Origin: Tannerella sp.
GTDB taxonomy: Bacteria > Bacteroidota > Bacteroidia > Bacteroidales > Tannerellaceae
Assembly (NCBI RefSeq): GCF_030528505.1
Contig: NZ_JAUMYS010000020.1
Location: forward strand, 1-44,440
DNA: 44,440 bases
Direction of reading: 5' to 3'
Shown one piece after another: positions 1-9,711 of this stretch. How positions within the stretch are numbered: position 1 is the stretch's first letter; each line of letters opens with the position of its first letter. A program made the translations under genes and the position numbers. The notes beneath the pieces are model-generated. The model was not told where the DNA came from. It ran no database searches and worked only from the letters and a program-made list of their open reading frames with translations.

Positions 1-10
1 CACTTTTCTC

Positions 11-826
11 TCACTTCTTAATCAATTTCTGCGTATACGTCTGTCCGTCTTTGACGACGCGCACGAAGTACAGTCCTGCCGGCAGTCCGGCCATCGGGAT
101 TTGGAACGTCGGCTCATTCGTCCGGAACGACCGCAGCATCGTCATACCGCTCCAGAGCTGGATTTCGTAGGTGCTTCTGTCGGTCGAGAGCACGCTTAAT
201 CCGCTGACTTCGTCCGTCTCCATCAGCTGCAAGGTCACTGCATCCGTTGCCGGGTTGGGCGAGAGGGTGAAGAAATTCGAACCACAGCTGTATTCATACC
301 TTGCGAAAGGTATATAACAAGGATATCCTGTGATTTCTACGGTAATCATGTAGGTGCCGGGGCCGGGGAATGTAACAACCGGTTGGATGTTTAAGAAGGT
401 GGTATTCGGATAATACCCAATTAAAGTATAACCGCTTCCGTCTATTTTCGTATAACTCCAACGATAATTTAAAGGGACATTCTGTAAGTCTCCATTTTCT
501 CCTTGAGGTGTCAGAAAGAAGCTGGCAAAATTGCTTCCTGAATAGCCGAGAGGTTGTATCTGAAATTTGGGTTGACCGGTCATTACGCGTTCTTTCCTGA
601 TGGTTAATTCGTTTCCTCTCGTGAAAATGTTCGCTTCCACATGAGTTAACGCAAAGGTTTGATTGGTAACTCGCAATACTCCGTTATTGCTTATCGTAGC
701 GACATTCGAATTCGATACGCTCCATTGCACCGTTGCGCCCGGCGGCAGATTTTCTACCGTGTAGGTCGCCTGATTGCAGACCGATGCAGGGCCGGAGATA
801 GAGGGTTGGCAAATAGTTATACTGTG
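11..826 (-). pseudogene. C-terminal part of the same protease: second Ig-like repeat and T9SS sorting domain ending KLIKK
   Basis: This is the continuation of the protease, one frame away from the catalytic part. It is open from the TGA at 827-829. It opens with ISGPASVCNQATYTVENLPP, closely matching the repeat ISGP/IGPMTICNQ seen in the first part, so the frame change lies between 797 and 829. After an Ig-like stretch comes SPNPATDAVTLQL, the start of a type IX secretion (Por) type A sorting domain of about 75 residues. It carries GLPAGLYFVRV and ends in KLIKK. This domain directs outer membrane export and surface attachment. The piece has no convincing start of its own (the first in-frame start after the shift is GTG at 730), so it is probably not translated unless ribosomes shift frame. 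KLIKK endings are characteristic of six T. forsythia proteases (knowledge of the family). Confidence 0.75.
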
Positions 827-2483
827 TCAAGTTGGCAATTGTGATTCCGTTAAAACGAATGGCTGCTCGTATCTCTGCGTTGGCAAATCCGGTTTGCCTA
901 AATAGAGCCGTTGCTGTTCCCTGACCGGACTGCAACGTCATGCTATTGTTACTAGCACTCCACTGTACGGTTGCTCCCTGCGGAAGGTTCTTTATTGTGT
1001 AGGTATAGTTAGGCTGGTTGCAAATGGTCATGGGCCCAATGAGAGTAGGTCTTCCTATGCCATTTAACGTTTGCGGATTTGTCCCTTGTGGATCCAACCA
1101 ATCTCTCAACCGCCTTCTCGAATCGGTAGCGCCGTTTCCTGTCCAGGAAACACTGAATTTGCCGTACCAATCGGGTGAATTTAAAGAACTACAACTCGAC
1201 AGTCCTCCATGTAGCTGGCCGATTACTCTATGATCGTTATTCAATAATGGGGAACCGGAAGAACCTTTTTCTGTAACTCCATGATGTGGCTCTGTAGGAC
1301 TCCATGTTATCCGCCAATGGGTAGCGGAATTGTTTGGAGAATTACTCTCATAAGCAGTAGATATAGGTACATTTCTATATGTCGATATCTTTTTTACATC
1401 TCCACTCGGATGGTGAATACCGACACCGCTTGTTCCCGAATTACCGGAACGATCCCAACCTAAATAATAAGGGGTAAATCCGGTTAAATTACGCGGGTCT
1501 TGCGTTAATCGAAGTAAAGCAAAATCAGATGATCCATTGTTCGCAACCACGGTAGCCCTAACCGTTGACCGATGAGCCGGTTCGTTGCCATCGGAACAAC
1601 CCGGATGTTCATACCCCCAATAGAAAACCCATCGAGAGGCATTCGGATTGCTAATCGCATCAAACAGATTTTGACCATAACCATTTTGCAAACAATGATC
1701 GGCCGTCAATACATAGGGAGTGTTGTCGTTATTGGTGTTATTGACCAATGAACAGGAACACCATCCTGATCCGTAATCCGAGACAACCATAATTCTGGCA
1801 ATAGCATCCTTTTCCATTCTCCAATTCGCTCCCTCCGGACAGTTTACATTTACCTGACAGTCGCCGGAGTCATCAAAAGATCTTGTTCGGACAGTATAGG
1901 GACTGTTAATATACCTGTATCCATAATCGATGCGAGAGATGGATATAATGGCTTCTTCACGAACGGTTTCCGGTTGATAATATTCGAAAGTAACCGTTTC
2001 TCCATATATCAAGCCGGTTGAAAATGCAAATGCACCGTTTGATTCGTTATTAAGGTACTCGGAGGTTATGGCCCCGATAGATTGCCTTGTATCTTCACTG
2101 TATACATAGAACTTTGCTCCTTTAGGCAACCGGAACTTATCGTATAGAGCGTTCGTGGAAAGGGCTCCTGGCAATCTAACCTTTAGCCTCCACAATTTGC
2201 TGCCATCTTCTAACGTTTGCCACACCCCGGAATTAGCTAATGTGTAATGCACTTTTACGGGATAAGCAAATCGCAAAGGGCCACCCGGTAAAGCGTCTTT
2301 GACTTTGTCTTGCGCCTGTATTATCGTCATATTCGGAGCAGATAACTCTTGTGTAGAAATATCTCTTAATAACTGAGAGGGAGTGACTCCGAAACTAAAA
2401 GGAACTTCATTGGTCGTTATTTGTGCGCTTAAAAATTGTATAAAAAACAAGTATCCTAAAATAGAGAGTATTATTCTTTTCAT
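684..2483 (-). CDS. Trypsin-like (lysyl-endopeptidase-type) KLIKK serine protease, catalytic part; frameshifted
   Basis: Secreted serine endopeptidase. Residues 1-20 form a signal peptide ending at FLSA/Q, and residues 21 to about 205 are probably a propeptide. The catalytic domain starts near DDSGDCQVNVNCP, a pattern like Achromobacter/Lysobacter lysyl endopeptidase. The triad is visible: His263 in TADHCL, Asp320 in SSDFALL and Ser409 in GSSGSP. After residue 480 an Ig-like repeat begins (PTLIGPMTICNQ), followed by a second repeat (PTL). The frame then shifts and about 40 unrelated residues are read before the stop. The lost continuation is in the frame covering 11-826, so the intact protein would be about 823 residues. 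The ATG shares ATGA with the stop of the preceding lipoprotein gene. From memory, two potempins (B1, B2) precede miropsin-1 in T. forsythia, so miropsin-1 is the best guess. That identity is inference. Confidence 0.82.
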   Translation of the reverse strand: MKRIILSILGYLFFIQFLSAQITTNEVPFSFGVTPSQLLRDISTQELSAPNMTIIQAQDKVKDALPGGPLRFAYPVKVHYTLANSGVWQTLEDGSKLWRLKVRLPGALSTNALYDKFRLPKGAKFYVYSEDTRQSIGAITSEYLNNESNGAFAFSTGLIYGETVTFEYYQPETVREEAIISISRIDYGYRYINSPYTVRTRSFDDSGDCQVNVNCPEGANWRMEKDAIARIMVVSDYGSGWCSCSLVNNTNNDNTPYVLTADHCLQNGYGQNLFDAISNPNASRWVFYWGYEHPGCSDGNEPAHRSTVRATVVANNGSSDFALLRLTQDPRNLTGFTPYYLGWDRSGNSGTSGVGIHHPSGDVKKISTYRNVPISTAYESNSPNNSATHWRITWSPTEPHHGVTEKGSSGSPLLNNDHRVIGQLHGGLSSCSSLNSPDWYGKFSVSWTGNGATDSRRRLRDWLDPQGTNPQTLNGIGRPTLIGPMTICNQPNYTYTIKNLPQGATVQWSASNNSMTLQSGQGTATALFRQTGFANAEIRAAIRFNGITIANLTQYNYLPTLYLRPCIGLQSGDLHGRKSAAGRNGAMERIEFECRYDKQ

Positions 2484-2914
2484 GACTTCGAGTATTTATA
2501 AAGTAAGTAATATTGTTTATTGTCGTAGAAAAATTTCAGTTCATTTTTCTCCCATGTGTACGATTCGAGCTTCTTTATGATGTGATAGAACAGCGCGGCA
2601 TCGCCGTTATGATCATCCCCAACCTTCGTTACTATATCAATATGAGGAGGAGTTGTAAGATAAACCCTCATATCATTAAAGACGGAACGCCCTTGGGCTT
2701 TTGTCTCGGAAATAAATTTAAACCAGTAGCTGCCTTTCGGTGCAAGGGGAGTGATTTTCCCGGTTTTTGCATCCACTATTCCGGCCAGTTCCCACCGAGT
2801 ACCGGTCAGTTGCGTAGGAACCTCGTAGTCCTTGTTCTTCTCGCACCCCGCTCCTGCTGTTAGCAAGAACAGAGCGATTACGGTAAATAAAATAGTCTTT
2901 CGTTTCATAATCAT
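2480..2914 (-). CDS. Potempin-like outer-membrane lipoprotein (candidate protease inhibitor)
   Basis: Small lipoprotein of 144 residues, or 142 from the second ATG at 2908. The signal peptide ends at TAGAGC, giving a mature chain of about 121 residues. The body starts LTGTRWELAGIVDAKTG and ends with beta-rich KLESYTWEKNELKFFYDNKQ. This suggests a small up-and-down beta-barrel like its neighbour at 2911-3342. Its stop overlaps the protease ATG as ATGA (2480-2483), and its own start overlaps the previous stop in the same way, so all three are translationally coupled. Potempins are 98-132-residue lipoproteins encoded directly upstream of KLIKK proteases that they inhibit (established for T. forsythia). 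Two in a row before a serine protease fits the B1/B2 pair. Inhibition here is inferred from context and size. Confidence 0.72.
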   Translation of the reverse strand: MIMKRKTILFTVIALFLLTAGAGCEKNKDYEVPTQLTGTRWELAGIVDAKTGKITPLAPKGSYWFKFISETKAQGRSVFNDMRVYLTTPPHIDIVTKVGDDHNGDAALFYHIIKKLESYTWEKNELKFFYDNKQYYLLYKYSKS

Positions 2915-3342
2915 TTCTTTTTAAACAGTAAATAATTGGTATCATCATAACATAGCTTCAATTGCTTTGAGGCTATTTCGAAGCGATGAACTTTATATAA
3001 AGCCTCTACATAGTTTCGACCATCGAAAAGTTCATTGATTTTAGTTCCTCCTATTTTTAGAAAATGAAGGCTTTCACCTTTTATCTGGTACTCTCCACCT
3101 ATTTCATTTGTAGAAGTATGTCCTGTTATCGTTCCGTCACTTAAAAATGTTATTGTATAGCATTTTTCACACTCTTTGGGTTCGGCTTCCCGCAAAGTCT
3201 TGTCTGCCGTGTTGCCGAAACCAGCCAGTTTCCATGTCCCGTACAATTCGGTAGAACCGTACTCTTCTTTCTCTTTCTCGCACCCCATTCCTACCATCAG
3301 CAAAAGCAAGGCGCCTATCCATAAAATGATTTGCTGTTTCAT
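2911..3342 (-). CDS. Potempin-like outer-membrane lipoprotein (candidate protease inhibitor)
   Basis: Lipoprotein of 143 residues. The signal peptide ends at MVGMGC (Cys21), leaving a mature chain of about 123 residues with an acidic EKEKEEYGS linker. The domain begins LYGTWKLAGFGN, resembling the first strand of META/lipocalin-like barrels. It has a KECEKCYTITF segment with two close Cys and alternating strands to the end. It resembles the next gene (GTRWELAG; a terminal FFYDNKQYYLL versus LCYDDTNYLLF), so the two are probably tandem duplicates. It is the first full gene after the promoter at 3494-3526 and overlaps the next start by ATGA. It probably shields the cell from the coupled protease at the outer membrane (inference from known potempins). 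Confidence 0.72.
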   Translation of the reverse strand: MKQQIILWIGALLLLMVGMGCEKEKEEYGSTELYGTWKLAGFGNTADKTLREAEPKECEKCYTITFLSDGTITGHTSTNEIGGEYQIKGESLHFLKIGGTKINELFDGRNYVEALYKVHRFEIASKQLKLCYDDTNYLLFKKK

Positions 3343-3394
3343 GTTTTTTTATTTTTAGAGGTTTATACTTGTTTCCGCGTTCCGGATATTTCTT

Positions 3395-3466
3395 TTACGC
3401 TGCGCCTCCGGTGCGGTTTGCGAGGCGCATCGGCTTGTCGGGTGGAGTATCGGTCGTTTTTTCCAT
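3395..3466 (-). CDS. Conserved leader peptide, copy 1 (23 residues)
   Basis: Tiny reading frame reading MEKTTDTPPDKPMRLANRTG and then GAA and TAA. It lies between the promoter at 3494-3526 and the lipoprotein gene at 3342. The core DKPMRLANRTxGAA recurs in two other places (4489-4563 and 5619-5726). Base changes among the three copies in the first half of the core fall at third codon positions and are silent (AAG/AAA, CCG/CCA, CTC/CTT), which favours translation. The same bases form a hairpin, TGCGCCTC pairing with GAGGCGCA, so an RNA function is also possible. I do not recognise the peptide. Confidence 0.45.
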   Translation of the reverse strand: MEKTTDTPPDKPMRLANRTGGAA

Positions 3467-3493
3467 AGTGTTGTGTTTTTTTATGTGTTACTG

Positions 3494-3526
3494 CAAAGAT
3501 AGATACAGTTTTTGATTATATGCAAA
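3494..3526 (-). promoter_or_regulatory. Bacteroidetes-type sigma-A promoter for the potempin-protease operon
   Basis: Minus-strand TTTG (3523-3526), 21 nt spacer and TATCTTTG (3494-3501), a full match to the Bacteroidetes -33/-7 pattern. It points toward the leader peptide, the two potempin-like genes and the protease. Confidence 0.7.
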
Positions 3527-3622
3527 TATTTCGCCTGTTTTTTTATGTTTTTTTGACACACGGGAAATAGAGTGTTGGGTGTTATGTAAACCAACCCCAT
3601 TAAACATCTCGCAGGGCTTTCG

Positions 3623-4044
3623 TTATTCAAAAACTCCATTCCCATACTCGTAAATTAATTTCCAGTCTTTACTTGTACGGCAAAAATGATCTGTAGCAAT
3701 CTCTTCCTTACTCCAAGCAACTCGCTTTCCTCCGTCATAATACACTTCGCAAAATAAACATGAACTTAAAAGTTCTTTACAAAATAAACGGCCTTCTCAT
3801 TCTATTCACCTTGATATAATCTGATTTTGACGATAGCAATATCTTTTTCATTTTCTTTCTCCATTTGATTTACTTTTTCTGAAAGCCAATCCGGAAAATC
3901 TTTTTTCGCCATAATATCGTGAGGCGCTTTTTGTAAATTAGAAAAGAAAATATCTACCATATTCTTTTCATCTTTTTCCTCGCATCCCATCCCTGCCATC
4001 ATTATGAGCAAGGCACTTATCCATAAAGTAATTTTTATCTTCAT
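3623..4044 (-). pseudogene. Lipoprotein pseudogene with a nonsense codon and a frameshift
   Basis: The open part (3802-4044) encodes an 80-residue lipoprotein with signal peptide ending at MAGMGC, then FPDWLSEKVNQMEKENEKD and IRLYQGE, and stops at TAG. The bases after the stop still encode family-like sequence: NEKAVYFVKN in the same frame, then after a 1-nt shift LLSSCLFCEVYYDGGKRVAW through SKDWKLIYEYGNGVFE to TAA at 3623. The TAG sits where related Bacteroidales lipoproteins tend to have Trp (YQGEW), so TGG to TAG plus a single-base deletion explains it. Two independent lesions argue for real decay rather than a sequencing error. It begins with an ATGA overlap from the gene at 4041-4436. 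The family function is not known to me. Confidence 0.65.
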
Positions 4045-4436
4045 ATCTTCTTTTTTATCGTTGACAATTTAATAAAGTAAACAGGATCCCGTTTAATCCA
4101 CGGCTTGATATATTCACTACAATCAAAGACTTCTCCACTGATTATAACGGAGAGGCCATCTTTTTTGTATTTTTCAGGAATATCACATCCGCGGGGGATA
4201 AGATAAAGTCCATGTACAAGCTCTTTATTCTCTATTTCCAAAGCAAAATCATTTCGCCTTTTTATATATCGAAAATGGGCATTTTCATTCTTAAGGGTTA
4301 CAATCGGAATCTTCTCTTCCACACATTCGCATGAGCAAGAGATGTGGCTTTCTTCCTCGGAACTTTCTTTCTCACACCCCGCTCCTGCCGTTAGCAAAAG
4401 CAGGGCACCTATCCATAAAATGATTTTTGTCTTCAT
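4041..4436 (-). CDS. Cys-rich small lipoprotein, paralogue of the 4560-4985 gene
   Basis: Lipoprotein of 131 residues. The signal peptide is almost the same as its neighbours' (MKTKIILWIGALLLLTAGAG, Cys21). The mature part begins EKESSEEESHISCSCECVEEK, a three-Cys cluster shared with the 4560-4985 product. It then has beta-rich sequence with GCDIPEKYKKDGLSVIISGEVFDCSEY, where two more Cys are conserved between the paralogues. Mature length is about 111 residues, within the size range of potempins, and an OB-like or small barrel fold is possible but unproven. It follows leader-peptide copy 2 and couples to the decayed gene at 4044 by ATGA. Function unknown. Confidence 0.65.
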   Translation of the reverse strand: MKTKIILWIGALLLLTAGAGCEKESSEEESHISCSCECVEEKIPIVTLKNENAHFRYIKRRNDFALEIENKELVHGLYLIPRGCDIPEKYKKDGLSVIISGEVFDCSEYIKPWIKRDPVYFIKLSTIKKKI

Positions 4437-4488
4437 ATCTTCTTTTTTTAAAGGTTTATAATTGCTTTTCGCGTTCCGGATATTTCTT

Positions 4489-4563
4489 TTACGCTGCGCC
4501 TTCGGTGCGGTTTGCGAGGCGCATTGGCTTGTCGGCAGGTCGCTGTTTAGGTCGTTTCTTCAT
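4489..4563 (-). CDS. Conserved leader peptide, copy 2 (24 residues)
   Basis: Tiny frame reading MKKRPKQRPADKPMRLANRT then EGAA and TAA. The N-terminal part is basic and differs from copies 1 and 3, while DKPMRLANRT-x-GAA is shared. Its ATG overlaps the stop of the lipoprotein gene at 4560-4985 as ATGA (4560-4563), so it sits inside an operon and not only behind a promoter. The hairpin stem is kept but shortened (TGCGCCT/AGGCGCA). The next gene begins about 50 nt downstream. Confidence 0.45.
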   Translation of the reverse strand: MKKRPKQRPADKPMRLANRTEGAA

Positions 4564-4985
4564 GGCGTTGTATTTTGTAACTGATACCGTTTTATACTGG
4601 ATAATTGGATGTAAAAGCGGTGATAGTATCTGGCGTTAGGCTTATAATACTCACTACAATCGAACTTCTGTCCACTGACAATAACAGGCAGGTCTTCCTG
4701 TTTATATCTGTCAGGAATATCATTTTCGCATGGAACGATAGGAATTTGGAATTTTCCTTGTGCTTCTTCTTTACTCTTGGAGACTAATACATATTTCTTT
4801 AAGAAACTGTTATATTGGACATATAACGTTTCATCTTTCAGTTCCATGATATGTACCTTCTCTTCCACGCATTCGCATGGACAAGAGATGTGGCTTTCTT
4901 CCTCGGAACTTTTTTTCTCACACCCTGTTGCTCCTAACATCAAGAGCAGAAAAAATGCGTAGGATAAAAATGTTTTTATTTTCAT
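4560..4985 (-). CDS. Cys-rich small lipoprotein, paralogue of the 4041-4436 gene
   Basis: Lipoprotein of 141 residues. The signal peptide ends at MLGATGC (Cys22). The start of the mature chain, KKSSEEESHISCPCECVEEK, is nearly identical to that of the 4041-4436 gene. Downstream NDIPDRYKQEDLPVIVSGQKFDCSEYYKP aligns with the paralogue (IPEKYKKDGLSVIISGEVFDCSEYIKP), so this is a tandem duplication with a diverged middle. The start lies one base after the stop of the gene at 4987-5598, and the stop overlaps the leader-peptide ATG. Function unknown. It may be an envelope inhibitor or binding protein by analogy with nearby potempin-like genes. Confidence 0.65.
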   Translation of the reverse strand: MKIKTFLSYAFFLLLMLGATGCEKKSSEEESHISCPCECVEEKVHIMELKDETLYVQYNSFLKKYVLVSKSKEEAQGKFQIPIVPCENDIPDRYKQEDLPVIVSGQKFDCSEYYKPNARYYHRFYIQLSSIKRYQLQNTTP

Positions 4986-4986
4986 G

Positions 4987-5598
4987 TTATCGGATTTTAA
5001 AATTAATTTTGAAATGAATGTCTTCTGTTTCCATATGTTTACCTCCCGAAACAGGGAACAATTTAAATTTATGAGAGAAACTTGTGTAATAACTTCCTGC
5101 TTTAAGAGGCTTTCTCTTTAGGCTTCTATAACGGAAATCTCCACCTTGAACGATCGATTCTTCAGGATGAACCCATGATACTTTAAAGATATAACTGTCG
5201 TTATTATTAAATGGATAAGCTGCTATGCCGATATCTTCCTGCGCCATAGCTTCATAAGATTTTCCTACTGTTTTTCCGGAAGAGTACCAAATGGAAAAGA
5301 AATCCTTCGCATAAACACATGGATAGGCATTGTAGTAAAAATTTTTTCCCGTCTCATTTTTTATTCGGAAATAAAAGGTGAAATTTTCTCCTTCCTTAAA
5401 GACTGTTGCCGGTTTTCCCTGTTCATTAAGCAGACAAAACTTAAAAGCAATACCGTTTATCTTCTGCTCTATAACGGCTTGCTTTCCATCGGGCGATATT
5501 TCCCATAGCTGATCATCATCCTTGTTACAGCCCGTTATTCCAGCGGTTATCCATAGTAATAATAAACGTACAAATAAGACTTCTTTTTTTGTCTTCAT
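4987..5598 (-). CDS. Lipoprotein with a BsuPI-like beta domain
   Basis: About 203-residue lipoprotein from the ATG at 5598. A start at 5637 would add an unlikely lysine-rich 13-residue prefix and would overlap the leader peptide. The signal peptide ends at TAGITGC. The mature chain holds FKFCLLNEQGKPATVFKEGE then NFTFYFRIKNETGKNFYY, which resembles the BsuPI intracellular proteinase-inhibitor fold family common in Bacteroidales lipoproteins. It ends with KAGSYYTSFSHKFKLF. The ATG is preceded by an A-rich AAAAAAAGAAGA stretch 20 nt after the leader-peptide stop. It is the first full gene of the upstream transcript. Protease inhibition is only suggested by fold resemblance and context. Confidence 0.6.
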   Translation of the reverse strand: MKTKKEVLFVRLLLLWITAGITGCNKDDDQLWEISPDGKQAVIEQKINGIAFKFCLLNEQGKPATVFKEGENFTFYFRIKNETGKNFYYNAYPCVYAKDFFSIWYSSGKTVGKSYEAMAQEDIGIAAYPFNNNDSYIFKVSWVHPEESIVQGGDFRYRSLKRKPLKAGSYYTSFSHKFKLFPVSGGKHMETEDIHFKINFKIR

Positions 5599-5618
5599 AA
5601 TATCTTCTTTTTTTAAGT

Positions 5619-5726
5619 TTATACTTGTTTTCCGCATTTCGGATATCTCTTATACGCTGCGCCTCTGGTGCGGTTTGCAAGGCGCATCGGTTTGTCGGGC
5701 GGAGTATAATCGTTTATCGCTTCCAT
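5619..5726 (-). CDS. Conserved leader peptide, copy 3 (35 residues, longer form)
   Basis: Reads MEAINDYTPPDKPMRLANRT then RGAAYKRYPKCGKQV and TAA. The core matches copies 1 and 2. Their TAA stop after GAA is TAT here, so the frame runs on for 11 residues; the equivalent bases after the stop in copies 1 and 2 would read similarly (KKYPE). The hairpin keeps pairing through a G-T (G-U in RNA) substitution. It is the first frame after the promoter box at 5738 and ends 20 nt before the next lipoprotein gene. Confidence 0.45.
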   Translation of the reverse strand: MEAINDYTPPDKPMRLANRTRGAAYKRYPKCGKQV

Positions 5727-5737
5727 GATTTGTTGTA

Positions 5738-5745
5738 CAAAGTTA
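5738..5745 (-). promoter_or_regulatory. -7 promoter box for the upstream lipoprotein transcript
   Basis: Minus-strand TAACTTTG matches TAnnTTTG and lies 11 nt before leader peptide copy 3. The nearest TTTG upstream is at an unusual 13-nt spacing, so only the -7 element is well supported. Confidence 0.5.
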
Positions 5746-5880
5746 GTAGATATATCATCAAACGTTTTTTAGATATGATGCAAAAAAGGTTGAAAACGCT
5801 GCTCGGCGAAGTGTTAAAATCGCAGGATAAGGCCGATTCATATAAAAACCGTATTTTTGCTTTCGAAACAAATGTTCAGC

Positions 5881-6336
5881 ATGATCAGACAAAAGATAAA
5901 GAAAGCAGGACTTTTACTCGTCTTCGTACTCTGTGCATGGAGCGGGTATGCGCAAGTCCCTTCGAAGCCTGTCGACGCCTTCACCCTTCGCGCGGGATAC
6001 AATCATAACCGGGATAAAAATACGGCGTTTCTGGGGGGAGGTTACCTCGTAGGCGATTATTTCTGGGCCAGCGCTACGTTTTACGGGGGGGTACATTATC
6101 TGAAGTATGACGGAAGGCATCGTATCGTTCCCGAAATCGGCGCCGATTTTCATGCGGTAATGGTGATGGCCGGCCTCTCGGTCACTCCCTGCTCCGTTCA
6201 GCCGAAAGTAGGACTGAGCATCTTATCTATCGCCAACGTGACGGCAGGATACAGCATACCGTTCGGACGGGAGCAGCTTTTTAAAGGGTTTACGTTGGGC
6301 GTACAGTTTCAGTTGCCCGTCATAAATCGCAAATAA
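5881..6336 (+). CDS. Small outer-membrane beta-barrel-like protein
   Basis: About 151 residues. The signal peptide is MIRQKIKKAGLLLVFVLCAW ending near YAQ. The mature part alternates Gly/aromatic strands (FTLRAGYN, LGGGYLVGDYFWASATFYGG, VTAGYSIPFG), as expected for a small six- to eight-strand barrel. It ends GFTLGVQFQLP, a typical outer membrane C-terminal strand. ATG at 5872 is an alternative start. The TTG at 5857 is unlikely because the -7-like box TATTTTTG (5852-5859) overlaps it. It is transcribed divergently from the lipoprotein region. No specific family was recognised. Confidence 0.65.
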   Translation: MIRQKIKKAGLLLVFVLCAWSGYAQVPSKPVDAFTLRAGYNHNRDKNTAFLGGGYLVGDYFWASATFYGGVHYLKYDGRHRIVPEIGADFHAVMVMAGLSVTPCSVQPKVGLSILSIANVTAGYSIPFGREQLFKGFTLGVQFQLPVINRK

Positions 6337-6383
6337 TATACATACCGGATGAACGGAGCTGTTTATCATCGGAGAAATATGCC

Positions 6384-6391
6384 TATTTTTG
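6384..6391 (+). promoter_or_regulatory. -7 promoter box upstream of rhaB
   Basis: TATTTTTG followed by TGCG, 19 nt before the rhaB ATG. No clear TTTG at the expected spacing. Confidence 0.45.
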
Positions 6392-6410
6392 TGCGAAAAA
6401 TTCGGAAATC

Positions 6411-7832
6411 ATGAAGAAGCATTATTTTCTGGCATTCGATTTGGGCGCTACCAGCGGACGGTCGATGCTCGGCATGTTAGAAGACGACAAGTTTGAAATC
6501 AGGGAACTGACACGCTTCCCAAACGCCATCATGGAGCTTCATGGCAGATATTACTGGAACGTTTTCAGTCTGTACGAGTCGTTGAAGGACGGACTGCGCG
6601 AGTGCGCCCGTCAGGGAATCCGGCTCACGTCGATCGGTATCGATACGTGGGGCGTCGATTTCGGCTATATCGGTCGTGACGGTACGATACTCGGGATGCC
6701 GCGCGCCTACCGCGATCCTTATACCGACGGAGCGCCGGATGAATTCTTTCAGCTCGTTCCGCGTGATAAAGTGTATGGCATGACAGGGATTCAGGTGATG
6801 AATTTCAACAGCCTCTTCCAACTGTTTTGTGCCAAAGCCGAAGCGTTCTCTCCGCTTGCGCAGGCCGACAAAATCTTGTTCATGCCCGATCTGTTGATTT
6901 ATATGCTGACCGGTAAGCAAGTCTGCGAATATACCGAGGCATCGACATCGCAACTGCTGAATCCTGCGACAAGGCGTTTCGAACCGTCCCTGCTGACGGC
7001 CATGGGCCTTTCGCCTTCATTGCTTCATCCGCTCGTCGACCCCGGCACCCCGATCGGCACCCTCACCGACGCGCTCGCCGAGGAGACAGGGGTAGGAAAA
7101 GTGCCGGTCGTAACCGTTGCTGGACACGATACGGCATCGGCCATCCTTGCCGTCCCGGCGGAGAATCCGCGTTTTGCCTATCTGAGCAGCGGTACCTGGA
7201 GCCTGATGGGGATCGAGACATCGGAACCGATCGTGACGAAAGAATCGTTCGAGCATAACTTTACGAACGAGGGCGGCGCCGAGGGAACGACTTGCTTTCT
7301 GAAGAACATCACCGGCATGTGGCTGCTCGAACAGTGCCGCAAGGAATGGGAGAAGGAAGGGCGCGTCTATACGTATCCGCAAATGGTCGATATGGCGGAG
7401 CGTGTCGGAAAAGCGCATGCCGTCATCTCGCCCGACGATTCGCGTCTGGCCAACCCGTCGAGCATGTCGCAAACCATCGCTGCGCTTTGTCGCGAAAAAG
7501 GGATGATACCTCCTTCGAACGATGCCGAATATATCCGTTGCATCTTCGAAAGTCTTGCGCATCGATATGCCGAAGTAACGGAAAAACTTGCGGAAATGGC
7601 TCCGTTCCCGATCGAAAAGTTACACATCATCGGGGGAGGATCGCAGAACGACCTGATGAATCGGTTGACGGCTCGTGCGTTGGGCATTCCCGTCGTAGCC
7701 GGTCCGTCCGAAGCAACGGCTATCGGTAACTGCATGACGCAGGCCAAAGCGGCCGGACTCGTAAGCGACCGCTGGGAGATGCGCCGCCTTATCGCGCGAG
7801 CGTTTGCCGTAAAAACGTATCTTCCGGAATGA
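6411..7832 (+). CDS. rhaB: Rhamnulokinase
   Basis: Cytoplasmic FGGY-family sugar kinase of 473 residues, a normal family length. It phosphorylates L-rhamnulose to L-rhamnulose 1-phosphate. The N-terminal ATPase motif is FDLGATSGRSMLG. The substrate region contains SIGIDTWGVDFGYIGRDG. The second domain has the phosphate motifs AGHDTASAILAVP, LSSGTWSLMGIE and HIIGGGSQNDLMNRLTARAL. TWGVDFG and GTWSL are typical of rhamnulokinases within FGGY. It lies 89 nt before rhaD, and the two are probably cotranscribed from the promoter at 6384. No rhamnose isomerase, permease or AraC-type regulator lies next to them here. Confidence 0.93.
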   Translation: MKKHYFLAFDLGATSGRSMLGMLEDDKFEIRELTRFPNAIMELHGRYYWNVFSLYESLKDGLRECARQGIRLTSIGIDTWGVDFGYIGRDGTILGMPRAYRDPYTDGAPDEFFQLVPRDKVYGMTGIQVMNFNSLFQLFCAKAEAFSPLAQADKILFMPDLLIYMLTGKQVCEYTEASTSQLLNPATRRFEPSLLTAMGLSPSLLHPLVDPGTPIGTLTDALAEETGVGKVPVVTVAGHDTASAILAVPAENPRFAYLSSGTWSLMGIETSEPIVTKESFEHNFTNEGGAEGTTCFLKNITGMWLLEQCRKEWEKEGRVYTYPQMVDMAERVGKAHAVISPDDSRLANPSSMSQTIAALCREKGMIPPSNDAEYIRCIFESLAHRYAEVTEKLAEMAPFPIEKLHIIGGGSQNDLMNRLTARALGIPVVAGPSEATAIGNCMTQAKAAGLVSDRWEMRRLIARAFAVKTYLPE

Positions 7833-7921
7833 AGACGAATGAAACGGATGAGACCGGGGACTTTTCCATCGGGTTTGTCCTTAAATAATTGAAATAAAAA
7901 CGACTTAAAAGCATCATAAAC

Positions 7922-8731
7922 ATGAAATCAATTTTAGATCATCGTCCTGCCTTGACGCGGGAAGTACATCAAGTGGCCGAAGTGGCCGGATACCTTTGGC
8001 AAAAAGGCTGGGCCGAACGGAACGGAGGTAATATTACCGTCAACATCACCGAATGGGTTGACGACGAAATCCGTCAGCTGCCGGCTCTGGGCGAAACGAT
8101 TCCTATCGGACTGACGCTGCCTCACCTCAAAGGCTGTTATTTTTACTGCAAAGGAACGAATAAACGAATGCGCGATCTGGCCCGATGGCCGATGGAGAAC
8201 GGTTCCGTCATCCGGATTACGGACGACTGTTCGGGGTATGTGATTATTGCCGACCATCCGGTAAAACCGACGTCGGAGTTGCCGTCACACCTCTCCATGC
8301 ACAATAAGTTTATCGCTTCGGGAAACGGTTACAAGGCGGTGCTGCACACGCATCCGATCGAACTGATTGCGATGTCGCACAGCAAAAAGTTTCTTCAGAA
8401 AGATGTGCTCACCCGTCTTTTATGGTCGATGATTCCGGAGACGAAGGCTTTCTGTCCGCGCGGACTGGGCATTATTCCTTACGAGATGCCGTCGTCCATC
8501 AACTTGGCGGAGGCGACGCTCAAAGAGCTGGATGACTATGACGTGGTGATGTGGGAAAAGCATGGCATCGTGTCGGTAAGCACCGATATTATGGAGGCAT
8601 TCGATATGGTCGATACGCTTAGCAAGTCGGCGCAGATTTACATCAATAGCAAATGTATGGGCTATGAGCCGGACGGAATGAGCGACGAGCAAATGGCCGA
8701 GATGACGCGAGCGTTTCATTTGCCCAAGTGA
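7922..8731 (+). CDS. rhaD: Rhamnulose-1-phosphate aldolase
   Basis: Class II zinc aldolase of 269 residues that cleaves L-rhamnulose 1-phosphate to dihydroxyacetone phosphate and L-lactaldehyde. The zinc ligands expected from the E. coli enzyme (His141, His143, His212) appear as HTHP (His142, His144) and EKHG (His214). The catalytic Glu equivalent is Glu119 in PTSELPSH. The N-terminal GWAERNGGNITVNI is a typical aldolase-II phosphate-binding region. It follows rhaB in the same direction, giving two of the three enzymatic steps of the pathway. Confidence 0.94.
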   Translation: MKSILDHRPALTREVHQVAEVAGYLWQKGWAERNGGNITVNITEWVDDEIRQLPALGETIPIGLTLPHLKGCYFYCKGTNKRMRDLARWPMENGSVIRITDDCSGYVIIADHPVKPTSELPSHLSMHNKFIASGNGYKAVLHTHPIELIAMSHSKKFLQKDVLTRLLWSMIPETKAFCPRGLGIIPYEMPSSINLAEATLKELDDYDVVMWEKHGIVSVSTDIMEAFDMVDTLSKSAQIYINSKCMGYEPDGMSDEQMAEMTRAFHLPK

Positions 8732-8759
8732 GTTTTTCTACGACACGTGTGCATCATGT

Positions 8760-8789
8760 GTGCGTTTCTTCTCCGAAAGAAAGACGCAC
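8760..8789. terminator. Possible bidirectional terminator between rhaD and dapA
   Basis: GTGCGT and ACGCAC flank an imperfect TTTCTTCTCCGAAAGAAAG hairpin in the 86-nt space where rhaD and dapA converge. The U-tract is weak. Confidence 0.4.
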
Positions 8790-8817
8790 TTGATTATTCC
8801 GCGGCTGACGTGCTGTT

Positions 8818-9711
8818 TCAGCATTGGATATGCAGCCGATGCAGCACGTCACGTATCTTCTCATACGTCGTGATGCGCGTCGGAACGAGGGGGAGACGCA
8901 ATTTGTTCTCAATAAAGCCCATCATGTTCAGCATGCTCTTTACACCGGCCGGATTGCCGTCGACGAAGAGTAATTCGAACAGTTCCATAAAACGCGAATG
9001 GATAACCCGTGCATTCGTATAGTCGCCTTCGAGCGCGAGCCGTACCATACGGCCGAATTCTTTGGGGAACGCGTTCCCGATTACCGATATCACTCCAACG
9101 GCTCCTAAGGCAATGAGCGGGAATGTGATGCCGTCATCGCCTGAGATGACCTGGAAATCTGCGGGCTTATGTTTGATGATATCATCCATTTGTTTGATGT
9201 TCCCCGACGCCTCTTTGATGGCTACGATATTCTCAAATGCGGAAGCGAGTCGGAGGGTCGTTTCCGCCGTCATGTTTGCTCCCGTGCGTCCGGGCACGTT
9301 ATAGAGCACCACCGGCAGCGGGGTCGCTTCGGCCACGGCTTCGTAGTGCCGAAAAAGTCCTTCTTGCGAAGGTTTATTGTAGTAGGGAACTACGGATAAG
9401 ATGGCGTCGATACCTTGAAAGTCACCGTGCTTTAACGTGTCGACTAACACTTGGGTGCAGTTTCCGCCGACACCTAACACAATCGGGATGCGGCGCCGCA
9501 CTTGTGTCACGACTTTCCGTACGATTTGCGCTTTCTCTTCCTCCCTCAGTGTGGGCGTTTCCGCCGTCGTTCCCAGTACGACCAAATAATCCGTACCGCT
9601 CTGTACCTGAAATTCGACTAATCGGAGCAAAGCCTCGTAGTCAATGCTTCCGTCCTGTCTGAAAGGTGTGATCAGGGCAACGCCCATCCCTCTTAAATCG
9701 ATTGTAGCCAT
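8818..9711 (-). CDS. dapA: 4-Hydroxy-tetrahydrodipicolinate synthase
   Basis: Cytoplasmic TIM-barrel enzyme of 297 residues. It condenses pyruvate with aspartate semialdehyde in the lysine/diaminopimelate pathway. Visible are GTTAETPTL near residue 47 (substrate Thr pair), Tyr137 in LYNVPGRTGANM and the Schiff-base Lys166 in AIKEASGN. GDDG and GAVGVISVIGN follow. Length is normal. It is the last gene of a minus-strand run with the DUF6913 gene (23 nt upstream) and ligA, an arrangement I associate with Bacteroidales. Confidence 0.95.
   Translation of the reverse strand: MATIDLRGMGVALITPFRQDGSIDYEALLRLVEFQVQSGTDYLVVLGTTAETPTLREEEKAQIVRKVVTQVRRRIPIVLGVGGNCTQVLVDTLKHGDFQGIDAILSVVPYYNKPSQEGLFRHYEAVAEATPLPVVLYNVPGRTGANMTAETTLRLASAFENIVAIKEASGNIKQMDDIIKHKPADFQVISGDDGITFPLIALGAVGVISVIGNAFPKEFGRMVRLALEGDYTNARVIHSRFMELFELLFVDGNPAGVKSMLNMMGFIENKLRLPLVPTRITTYEKIRDVLHRLHIQC

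Follow-up and report, generated by a model that had tools for sequence, protein, structure and literature searches.

A shared 5′ leader ahead of potempin-type lipoprotein and KLIKK protease operons in oral Tannerella, with a candidate role as RNA

In the stretch of Tannerella sp. DNA analyzed here (contig NZ_JAUMYS010000020.1, positions 1 to 44,440; hereafter the window), a short repeat stands ahead of lipoprotein genes, and the question it raises is what has been kept alike in it: the tiny peptide that it can encode, or the nucleotides themselves. The initial annotation described a three-copy element at 3395-3466, 4489-4563 and 5619-5726, each copy ahead of a lipoprotein gene, and proposed a regulatory leader peptide, an RNA element, or both. 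The coordinates are borne out, with the leader ORFs on the minus strand, and so is the placement, the lipoprotein ATG lying 124-128 nt downstream in each case. The features of the region, all on the minus strand, are as follows.

3494..3501, minus: -7 promoter box of copy 1, TATCTTTG, 35 nt upstream of its leader ATG; consensus TAnnTTTG
3395..3466, minus: copy 1 leader ORF, MEKTTDTPPDKPMRLANRTGGAA and stop
3372..3439, minus: copy 1 conserved 68-nt core, extending past the stop codon into non-coding sequence
2911..3342, minus: lipoprotein of 143 aa with a META domain, starting 124 nt downstream of the copy 1 leader ATG
2480..2914, minus: second lipoprotein of the copy 1 operon, 144 aa
11..2483, minus: trypsin-like KLIKK protease, miropsin type, of the copy 1 operon, in two frames (684-2483 and 11-730)
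4489..4563, minus: copy 2 leader ORF, MKKRPKQRPADKPMRLANRTEGAA and stop; start codon overlapping the upstream lipoprotein gene's stop (ATGA)
4466..4533, minus: copy 2 core, by match to the 68-nt core
4041..4436, minus: lipoprotein, 131 aa, 127 nt after the copy 2 leader ATG
3802..4044, minus: small lipoprotein, 80 aa, after the 131-aa lipoprotein of copy 2
5738..5745, minus: -7 promoter box of copy 3, TAACTTTG, 19 nt upstream of its leader ATG
5619..5726, minus: copy 3 leader ORF, MEAINDYTPPDKPMRLANRTRGAAYKRYPKCGKQV and stop, continuing beyond the usual stop
5629..5696, minus: copy 3 core, 90% identical to the copy 1 core
4987..5598, minus: lipoprotein after copy 3, 203 aa from the ATG at 5598
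4560..4985, minus: lipoprotein, 141 aa; its stop codon and the copy 2 start overlap

The repeat is real and far beyond chance. Searched against its own genome, the 68-nt core finds seven places at E 1.9e-29 to 1e-19 and a half copy at a contig end at 2e-6, everything else in that genome being short, weak matches at E 0.03 and above. The count of three therefore does not stand: there are 8 places, two of them contig-end halves with 20 bases in common, perhaps of a single copy. In all, 25 places were found in three genomes of the Tannerella forsythia type (8 in the window's own genome, 11 in G001, one of these fused to a protease gene, and 6 in G002). A fourth Tannerella genome, G003, contributes 7 diverged copies, one of them at L101:11683-11790. 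A pattern scan of genome contigs, from which the own genome may have been absent, gave 11 stretches, 6 from T. forsythia ATCC 43037 and 5 from OH1426_COT-023.

Beyond these, peptide, DNA and profile searches covered 41 genomes of the genus, a DNA search 123 of the family and a profile search 393 of the order, and convincing copies were present in G000-G003 only. Filtering in the profile searches was strict, and no more than 96 (genus) or 10 (order) candidates were scored per genome, so that weak copies could escape. A number of marginal matches were taken as chance: four genomes at E 0.17-1.2 in the genus peptide search; in the genus profile search, ten other genomes with 12 places at E 0.027-0.097, and G000 and G001 with one place apiece; numerous short ones, with E as high as 1, in the genus DNA search; partial matches of 18-30 nt in five genomes of the family; and three genomes at E 0.0026-0.0058 in the order profile search. 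When nhmmer was run on some of the weakly matching sequences, the best value outside G003 was E 7e-4. The link to lipoprotein genes holds in the readable copies of G000-G003, and no convincing copy appears elsewhere in the genomes searched.

A lipoprotein gene lies downstream in all 24 readable T. forsythia places, in second position after a secreted protein in 2 of them, and in 7 of 7 G003 copies; a dispersed intergenic repeat of the REP or MITE type was rejected because all 24 readable places lead into such a gene. Ten of the 24 continue directly into a KLIKK protease, and 3 more end inside a protease at a contig end. In the window, the copy 1 operon runs from two lipoproteins, whose inhibitor role is putative, into the KLIKK protease, while copies 2 and 3 are followed by lipoproteins only until the next leader. 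The closest known system is the potempin-KLIKK operons of T. forsythia, and the elements sit ahead of operons of this kind. Of the window lipoproteins, one matches potempins over most of its length and one in the signal region: the 131-aa protein (4041..4436) matches potempin A at E 2e-6 and the PDB entry 8ehb, a "putative lipoprotein," at E 4e-65 over its length, and the 143-aa META-domain protein (2911..3342) matches the PDB potempins A, E and C in its signal region only. Residues 4-144 of the 144-aa protein (2480..2914) found no PDB or Pfam relative.

The conserved half of the short ORF had been read as a tiny peptide, DKPMRLANRTxGAA, with silent third-position differences among its copies. 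This does not survive a larger sample. Even in the three window copies, the 14 conserved codons show 3 silent changes (AAG>AAA, CCG>CCA, CTC>CTT), 2 replacements (GGA>GAA, GGA>AGA) and a lost stop, the readthrough in copy 3 having been correctly described. Across the 25 T. forsythia rows, the distinct changes in this half are 8 silent and 20 replacement, spread 10/9/9 over the codon positions, in agreement with the neutral expectation for the core of 0.26-0.29 silent; the 15 intact copies give 3 and 16. Beyond the stop, distinct changes are no more frequent (0.58 per site, against 0.67). Five of 23 full T. forsythia copies carry a frameshift or a premature stop, including the one in the karilysin-type operon of ATCC 43037 (PPG, then stop), and in these the core differs by 1-3 changes in 68. 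In G003, 6 of the 7 ORFs stop at codon 16, with other residues, versus codon 24 in T. forsythia, and most of the core is retained as non-coding sequence. Selection on the peptide was accordingly rejected for the core on silent and replacement counts with the other frames as control; it stays weakly open for the N-terminal half, where a silent excess and a motif common to both species, TPPD or IPPD, are weak signs of translation. Copies elsewhere with frameshifts or without a downstream link, and with no sign of codon-level selection or base-pair covariation, had been named beforehand as grounds for abandoning the idea; for the peptide, frameshifts and missing codon-level selection are largely what is seen. 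The link to lipoprotein genes holds, and this favors an element that works as RNA or DNA.

What is constant instead is the layout. The leader is about 125 bases, nearly constant in length, with 123-129 nt from its ATG to the lipoprotein ATG in 28 of 30 copies from two species (L052 and the fused copy, which has no leader ATG and whose distances run from an aligned base, are left out); position and length are thus fixed across species, in the manner of a structured RNA. The core spans about +37 to +92 of the leader ATG in both species, with a between-species identity of 0.72 (0.51 when shuffled), and the spacer is near random at 0.52 against 0.48; the corresponding values are 0.54 and 0.51 for the promoter region and 0.63 and 0.48 for the signal sequence. 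In most copies a promoter box lies 32-36 nt before the leader ATG, and an exact match to TAnnTTTG, the consensus for the -7 box of the Bacteroides primary sigma factor in the material consulted from PMC7366714, occurs in 19 of 23 T. forsythia and 4 of 7 G003 copies; no box was found upstream of three T. forsythia copies (window copy 2, L043 and the fused copy) and two in G003.

A stem in the core is harder to establish. The hairpin had been thought to be kept by a G-U pair in copy 3, but its straight 8-bp register pairs in 92.4% of cells and in 92.5% of shuffled ones, with covariation absent. With an A bulged out, 98.5% of cells pair versus 97.9% shuffled, which is not significant, since 75 of 500 shuffles reach that level; a single cell is altered on both sides. 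Folding energies are ordinary (z -1.09, 0.70 and -1.05 for the window copies; |z| > 2 in 1 of 12 folded sequences). The predicted pairing probability of the stem averages 0.94 over 25 of 30 copies, omitting five that lack both exact arms (L012, L044:2173, L047, L055:1533 and L102), with one scored copy, L075:5795, at 0.02. A GCGCC/GGCGC stem thus fits the core and is unproven. That the element is not known to be described still stands: no Rfam family matches it (cmscan of window positions 1-9000 at E up to 5 gave one chance match, 7904-8026), and a limited literature check found no description.

The reading that we prefer, at a probability of about one half, is that the element is a shared cis-acting 5′ leader of potempin-type lipoprotein-KLIKK protease operons in oral Tannerella, homogenized by recombination and acting at the nucleotide level, most likely as RNA. 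The core belongs to a 5′ block of about 270 nt (promoter, leader and signal peptide) in which, as in the 3′ CTD block, different operons of one species are more alike than matching operons of two. Of the original choice between leader peptide and RNA element, the leader before lipoprotein genes is retained and the conserved peptide is not. Transcription would start just after the -7 box; the core may fold into the GCGCC/GGCGC stem-loop or bind a protein or small RNA; and, fixed about 33 nt before the lipoprotein start, it could set the translation or stability of all these mRNAs jointly. The short ORF may itself be translated, perhaps with ribosomes pausing at its PPD codons next to the stem; even so, the peptide would not be what selection preserves. 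Against this reading stand the modest clustering between species, a level found in 630 of 20,000 permutations, and the fact that homogenization inflates conservation within a species.

It is possible, though we think it rather unlikely, that the leader has no regulatory role beyond its promoter and is alike simply because operon ends recombine, with homologous tracts at the 5′ side and the CTD by way of which protease-inhibitor cassettes duplicate, move and are rewritten. Leader identity averages 0.89-0.93 among paralogues within a species, that is, the other operons of a genome, versus 0.58-0.65 between orthologues (six operon pairs by best blastp hit, from five G003 operons). Blastn among ten operons places most of the shared DNA between roughly -77 (or -315) and +195 and in the CTD; when the karilysin operons of the two species are compared, matches are confined to the middle and the CTD. 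L046:3046-3151 is a recombinant in which the 5′ part of a miropsin gene joins a leader at a common heptamer, GACACTC, and unrelated sequence runs right up to the leader at window copy 2 and L043. On the other hand, T. forsythia leaders are not clearly more alike within genomes (means 0.854, 0.893 and 0.887) than between them (0.854-0.875), so that recent conversion within genomes is unsupported. Moreover, recombination leaves unexplained both the constant 123-129 nt and the retention of the core between species whose spacer and promoter region have diverged. The recombining ends and a regulatory leader can hold together. A doubtful extension makes the promoter-leader-signal and CTD blocks the constant ends of a cassette system, in which recombination would homogenize the ends and shuffle, duplicate or replace the inhibitor-protease pair, the leader keeping new pairs under the same post-transcriptional control.

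PPD is a strong arrest motif. A regulatory leader peptide is conceivable in which a ribosome pauses at PPD (codons 8-10) next to a stem with its 5′ arm starting at nt 39, the state of the ribosome (EF-P, proline supply, growth) setting downstream expression in the way of proline- or arrest-dependent leaders. Arrest at two or more prolines and rescue by EF-P are covered in the sections used of PMC8092293 and PMC11611912. The ATG and TPPD/IPPD are common to two species whose C-terminal halves differ, PPD occurs in 16 of 23 T. forsythia and 5 of 7 G003 copies, and with PPD at codon 8, GCGCC begins at nt 39 in both. The N-terminal codons of the 15 intact copies show 6 silent and 4 replacement changes (p = 0.03, uncorrected), the other two frames 1 and 6 each. 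We nevertheless consider this improbable, since the frame is broken in 5 of 23 copies and PPD is lacking in 7 of 23 in operons that otherwise look intact, G003 alone carries no codon signal (5 silent, 10 replacement), and no T-run of a terminator follows the stem in the three window copies, read by eye. A DNA operator, still less probable in our estimation, would have a dimeric regulator coordinate the operons from the inverted repeat TGCGCCTC-N13-GAGGCGCA, whose half-sites lie about two helical turns apart (8+13+8 in T. forsythia); GGAGGCGCAGCG is conserved in both species. However, the repeat is probably inside the transcribed leader, and in G003 the left half-site is altered and the arms stand 3-5 nt farther apart, with GCGCC and GGCGC kept in 6 of 7 copies; this fits RNA better than a rigid operator.

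The periodontitis literature, in the extracts used of PMC4404884 and PMC7296668, treats KLIKK proteases and potempins as separate enzyme-inhibitor pairs, taken in the latter to co-vary. PMC4404884 reports small lipoprotein ORFs before all six KLIKK proteases, with no significant similarity among them, and an AT tract at the ends; in those extracts neither account of potempin-KLIKK operons mentions a shared leader. One leader on these operons makes joint control possible, with joint evolution at both ends, and offers a single handle for measuring or silencing the whole protease-inhibitor set. It is also a natural example of operon ends that evolve in concert while the middle varies, and a reminder that a few repeats judged by eye can mimic codon-level selection.

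Leaders with short ORFs have parallels. In Bacteroides thetaiotaomicron, long 5′ UTRs are described that contain short ORFs resembling leader peptides (PMC7366714, in part); the example there is a single gene found by inspection, whereas the Tannerella leader belongs to a whole operon family and its frame is unconserved. In Salmonella mgtCBRU, according to the sections used of PMC8092293, the mgtP leader ORF responds to charged proline tRNA, and the mgtQ short ORF overlaps an inhibitory stem-loop before a virulence-operon gene. The mgtQ stem controls access to the ribosome-binding site; in Tannerella, by contrast, the ORF is broken in several copies and sequestration of the start is not indicated, the lipoprotein start being predicted mostly open with a mean unpaired probability of 0.62, a mean that includes offset starts in L044:5980 (+97 versus +124) and L052 (+151). 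In the signal sequence of L052, one base is missing right after the homologous ATG.

The three leader elements of the window all lie on the minus strand:

3395-3466, minus strand: copy 1, short ORF MEKTTDTPPDKPMRLANRTGGAA and stop; lipoprotein ATG 124 nt after the leader ATG
4489-4563, minus strand: copy 2, short ORF MKKRPKQRPADKPMRLANRTEGAA and stop; lipoprotein ATG 127 nt after the leader ATG
5619-5726, minus strand: copy 3, ORF extended to ...GAAYKRYPKCGKQV and stop; lipoprotein ATG 128 nt after the leader ATG

A TAnnTTTG box is found upstream of copies 1 (35 nt) and 3 (19 nt) and is absent upstream of copy 2, whose ATG shares bases with the stop codon of the lipoprotein gene before it. In the copy-1 operon, the trypsin-like KLIKK protease (11-2483, minus strand) is split into two overlapping frames, 684-2483 and 11-730, reflecting either a strain frameshift or an assembly error.

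All three copies described in the initial annotation are present, but the element is not limited to them. A peptide search of the window's own genome (G000) turned up seven convincing places plus two weak ones, of which one, C98:31063-31101, is a half copy lying at a contig end. A DNA profile search of fetched stretches found 25 places: 8 in G000 and 11 and 6 in the T. forsythia-type genomes G001 and G002, where match positions agree with those of T. forsythia ATCC 43037 and OH1426_COT-023. Two half copies in G000, each at a contig end (C98 and C52), have 20 bases in common and may be one single copy. With a profile built from 28 copies, a fourth Tannerella genome, G003, yielded seven diverged copies (E 8e-18 to 3e-15), and no convincing copies were found with it in the remaining 37 genomes of the genus. 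Across 393 genomes of the order, with few candidates scored per genome, only G000 and G002 reached E 0.01, apart from three weak matches. From its karilysin-type orthologue we infer that G003 is probably T. serpentiformis/BU063, an orthologue which the consulted part of PMC7014623 gives for BU063. In other genomes of the family, the 3' part of the core (GCGTAAAAGAAATATCCGGAACGC) has partial matches of 25-30 nt (87-96%), at G013:C315:14464, G115:C8:53822, G046:C162:15625 and G052:C59:23452, possibly by chance.

The proposed position ahead of lipoprotein genes holds at all readable places. Of the 25 T. forsythia places, 24 have readable downstream sequence (L013 stops after 52 nt), and a lipoprotein gene follows in all 24, L011 and L053 included; at L010:7847 and L052 the lipoprotein is second, after a secreted protein that lacks a lipobox. 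In G003 a lipoprotein follows 7/7 copies. The lipoprotein signal peptides are of two types, MKQQIILWIG.. and MKTKKK..LWIT... A KLIKK protease is directly next in 10 of the 24 places, and the contig ends inside the protease in 3 more; the others show lipoproteins alone, a protease that is truncated or in pieces, or a contig running out. In the G003 stretches read, a C-terminal domain (CTD) protein ending KLIKN is then seen after 3/7 copies. The element is thus tied more closely to potempin-type lipoprotein genes than to proteases. For the copy-2 lipoprotein the matches are PDB 8ehb ("putative lipoprotein", E 4e-65), potempin A across residues 1-106 and, within the signal region, potempins C and E; the lipoprotein of copy 1 matches potempins A, E and C over its first 25-43 residues only. 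The seven leader-bearing lipoprotein operons of G003 (L073, L074, L075, L077, L101, L102), with five CTD matches of which three are seen to end in KLIKN, exceed the karilysin and mirolase orthologues given in the consulted part of PMC7014623. At L075:9898-10005 and in L101 (both minus strand) the lipoproteins are of 528 and 511 aa, and one T. forsythia lipoprotein matches each several times; by sequence, they are apparently tandem arrays of inhibitor-like domains.

PMC4404884, in the part consulted, describes ORFs upstream of KLIKK proteases without significant similarity to each other, and the consulted parts of PMC4404884, PMC7296668 and PMC7014623 make no mention of a shared leader (related literature, likewise in part: PMC7366714, PMC8092293, PMC11611912, PMC4176338, PMC6238534). 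No title on the leader appeared among the matches listed; broader listings are too unspecific to establish absence, and a description in the primary potempin papers is possible.

The main ground for regarding the peptide as translated had been silent third-position changes in the conserved half, and here the larger set of copies points the other way. Of the 28 distinct changes found in the 14 conserved codons over all 25 rows, 8 are silent and 20 are replacements (neutral expectation, 26-29% silent), with 10/9/9 at the three codon positions; the 15 intact ordinary-frame copies (the 25 less five with a broken frame, three odd ones and two partial ones) carry 3 silent and 16 replacement. Distinct changes per site are similar before (0.67) and after (0.58) the stop. 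Moreover, the frame is broken in 5/23 full copies, four frameshifted and one stopping after 10 codons, and their cores have just 1-3 changes in 68. In the N-terminal half, initially described as variable, silent changes number 6 and replacements 4, with 1/6 in each other frame (p = 0.03, one-sided and uncorrected for several tests); in the G003 copies the codon signal is absent (5/10 silent/replacement). The part common to both species is TPPD or IPPD, with PPD in 16/23 T. forsythia and 5/7 G003 copies.

Interspecies identity was taken over 19 copies from T. forsythia and 7 from G003, leaving out four of T. forsythia with unrelated upstream sequence or no lipoprotein start found. It is 72% in the core (+37 to +92) vs 51% shuffled, 63% vs 48% in the signal sequence, 54% vs 51% in the promoter region and 52% vs 48% in the spacer ahead of the lipoprotein. 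In 6/7 G003 copies the stop falls at codon 16, and thus most of the core lies beyond it. Despite the lost spacer sequence, the two ATGs stand 123-129 nt apart in the 28 copies for which the distance was taken from a leader ATG. The best 22-column window between species consensuses, ACCGCA..CCGGAGGCGCAGCG, has 20 matches, a modest result attained by 630 of 20,000 column permutations. A candidate GCGCC/GGCGC stem is possible in both species and plausible. In a bulged-A register 98.5% of cells pair vs 97.9% shuffled (75/500 shuffles attain the observed value). The straight register initially proposed for the hairpin does no better than shuffling (92.4% vs 92.5%), and folding energies show nothing beyond the ordinary.

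A cis-acting 5' leader RNA is the reading to which we give most weight; that it regulates is inferred from its conservation. Such an RNA would be transcribed from the promoter box with a fixed length, placing a frame-independent core about 33 nt before the start of the lipoprotein, where its partner might be a protein, a small RNA, the ribosome or the stem alone. Ribosome pausing at PPD adjacent to the stem would be an attractive addition; however, PPD is missing from 7/23 T. forsythia copies.

The likeness of the leaders may also be due to recombination, for which they would serve as an arm, and this may be true alongside a leader RNA. Operons were matched between T. forsythia and G003 by best blastp hit.

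Matched pairs, T. forsythia and G003 (blastp identity)
Karilysin-type: protease 51%, its lipoprotein 52%
Mirolase-type: protease 50%
Miropsin-type: protease 54-57%, lipoprotein 51%
Two more lipoproteins: 58-62%

In six matched pairs (five G003 operons) leader identity between species is 58-65%, and leaders of other operons within the same genome average 89-93%. T. forsythia leaders are about equally alike between genomes (0.854-0.875) and within them (0.854-0.893), so that homogenisation is visible at the species level. By blastn, paralogues among ten operons share a CTD block as well as a 5' block that runs from about -77 (some -315) to about +195, with mostly unrelated middles. Exceptions are a match of 60-130 nt that many pairs have further upstream of the CTD, and one pair with 807 nt. 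Between the T. forsythia and G003 karilysin operons, middle and CTD match and the leader does not. The secretion domain parallels the leader, being more alike within T. forsythia (90-100% identical to the query, with two at 81% and 76%) than toward G003 (81-85%). Moreover, L046:3046-3151 (minus strand, G001 contig 76) is an evident recombinant, in which the first ~60 codons of a miropsin gene are joined to a leader at a shared heptamer, GACACTC; another lipoprotein and then a 736-aa KLIKK protease follow. From the homogenised ends and this copy, the within-species likeness is probably due largely to recombination rather than selection, and silent-change counts between paralogues call for caution. 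A recombination arm accounts better for the homogeneity than for the interspecies conservation. Ahead of eleven copies (L010, L044-L050, L052), between about -315 and -80, lies an inverted-repeat stretch (CTTTGCGTTCCTTGCGG...CGCAAAGGACGCAAA); one 92-nt version has just three matches in the window's own genome, two of them at leaders.
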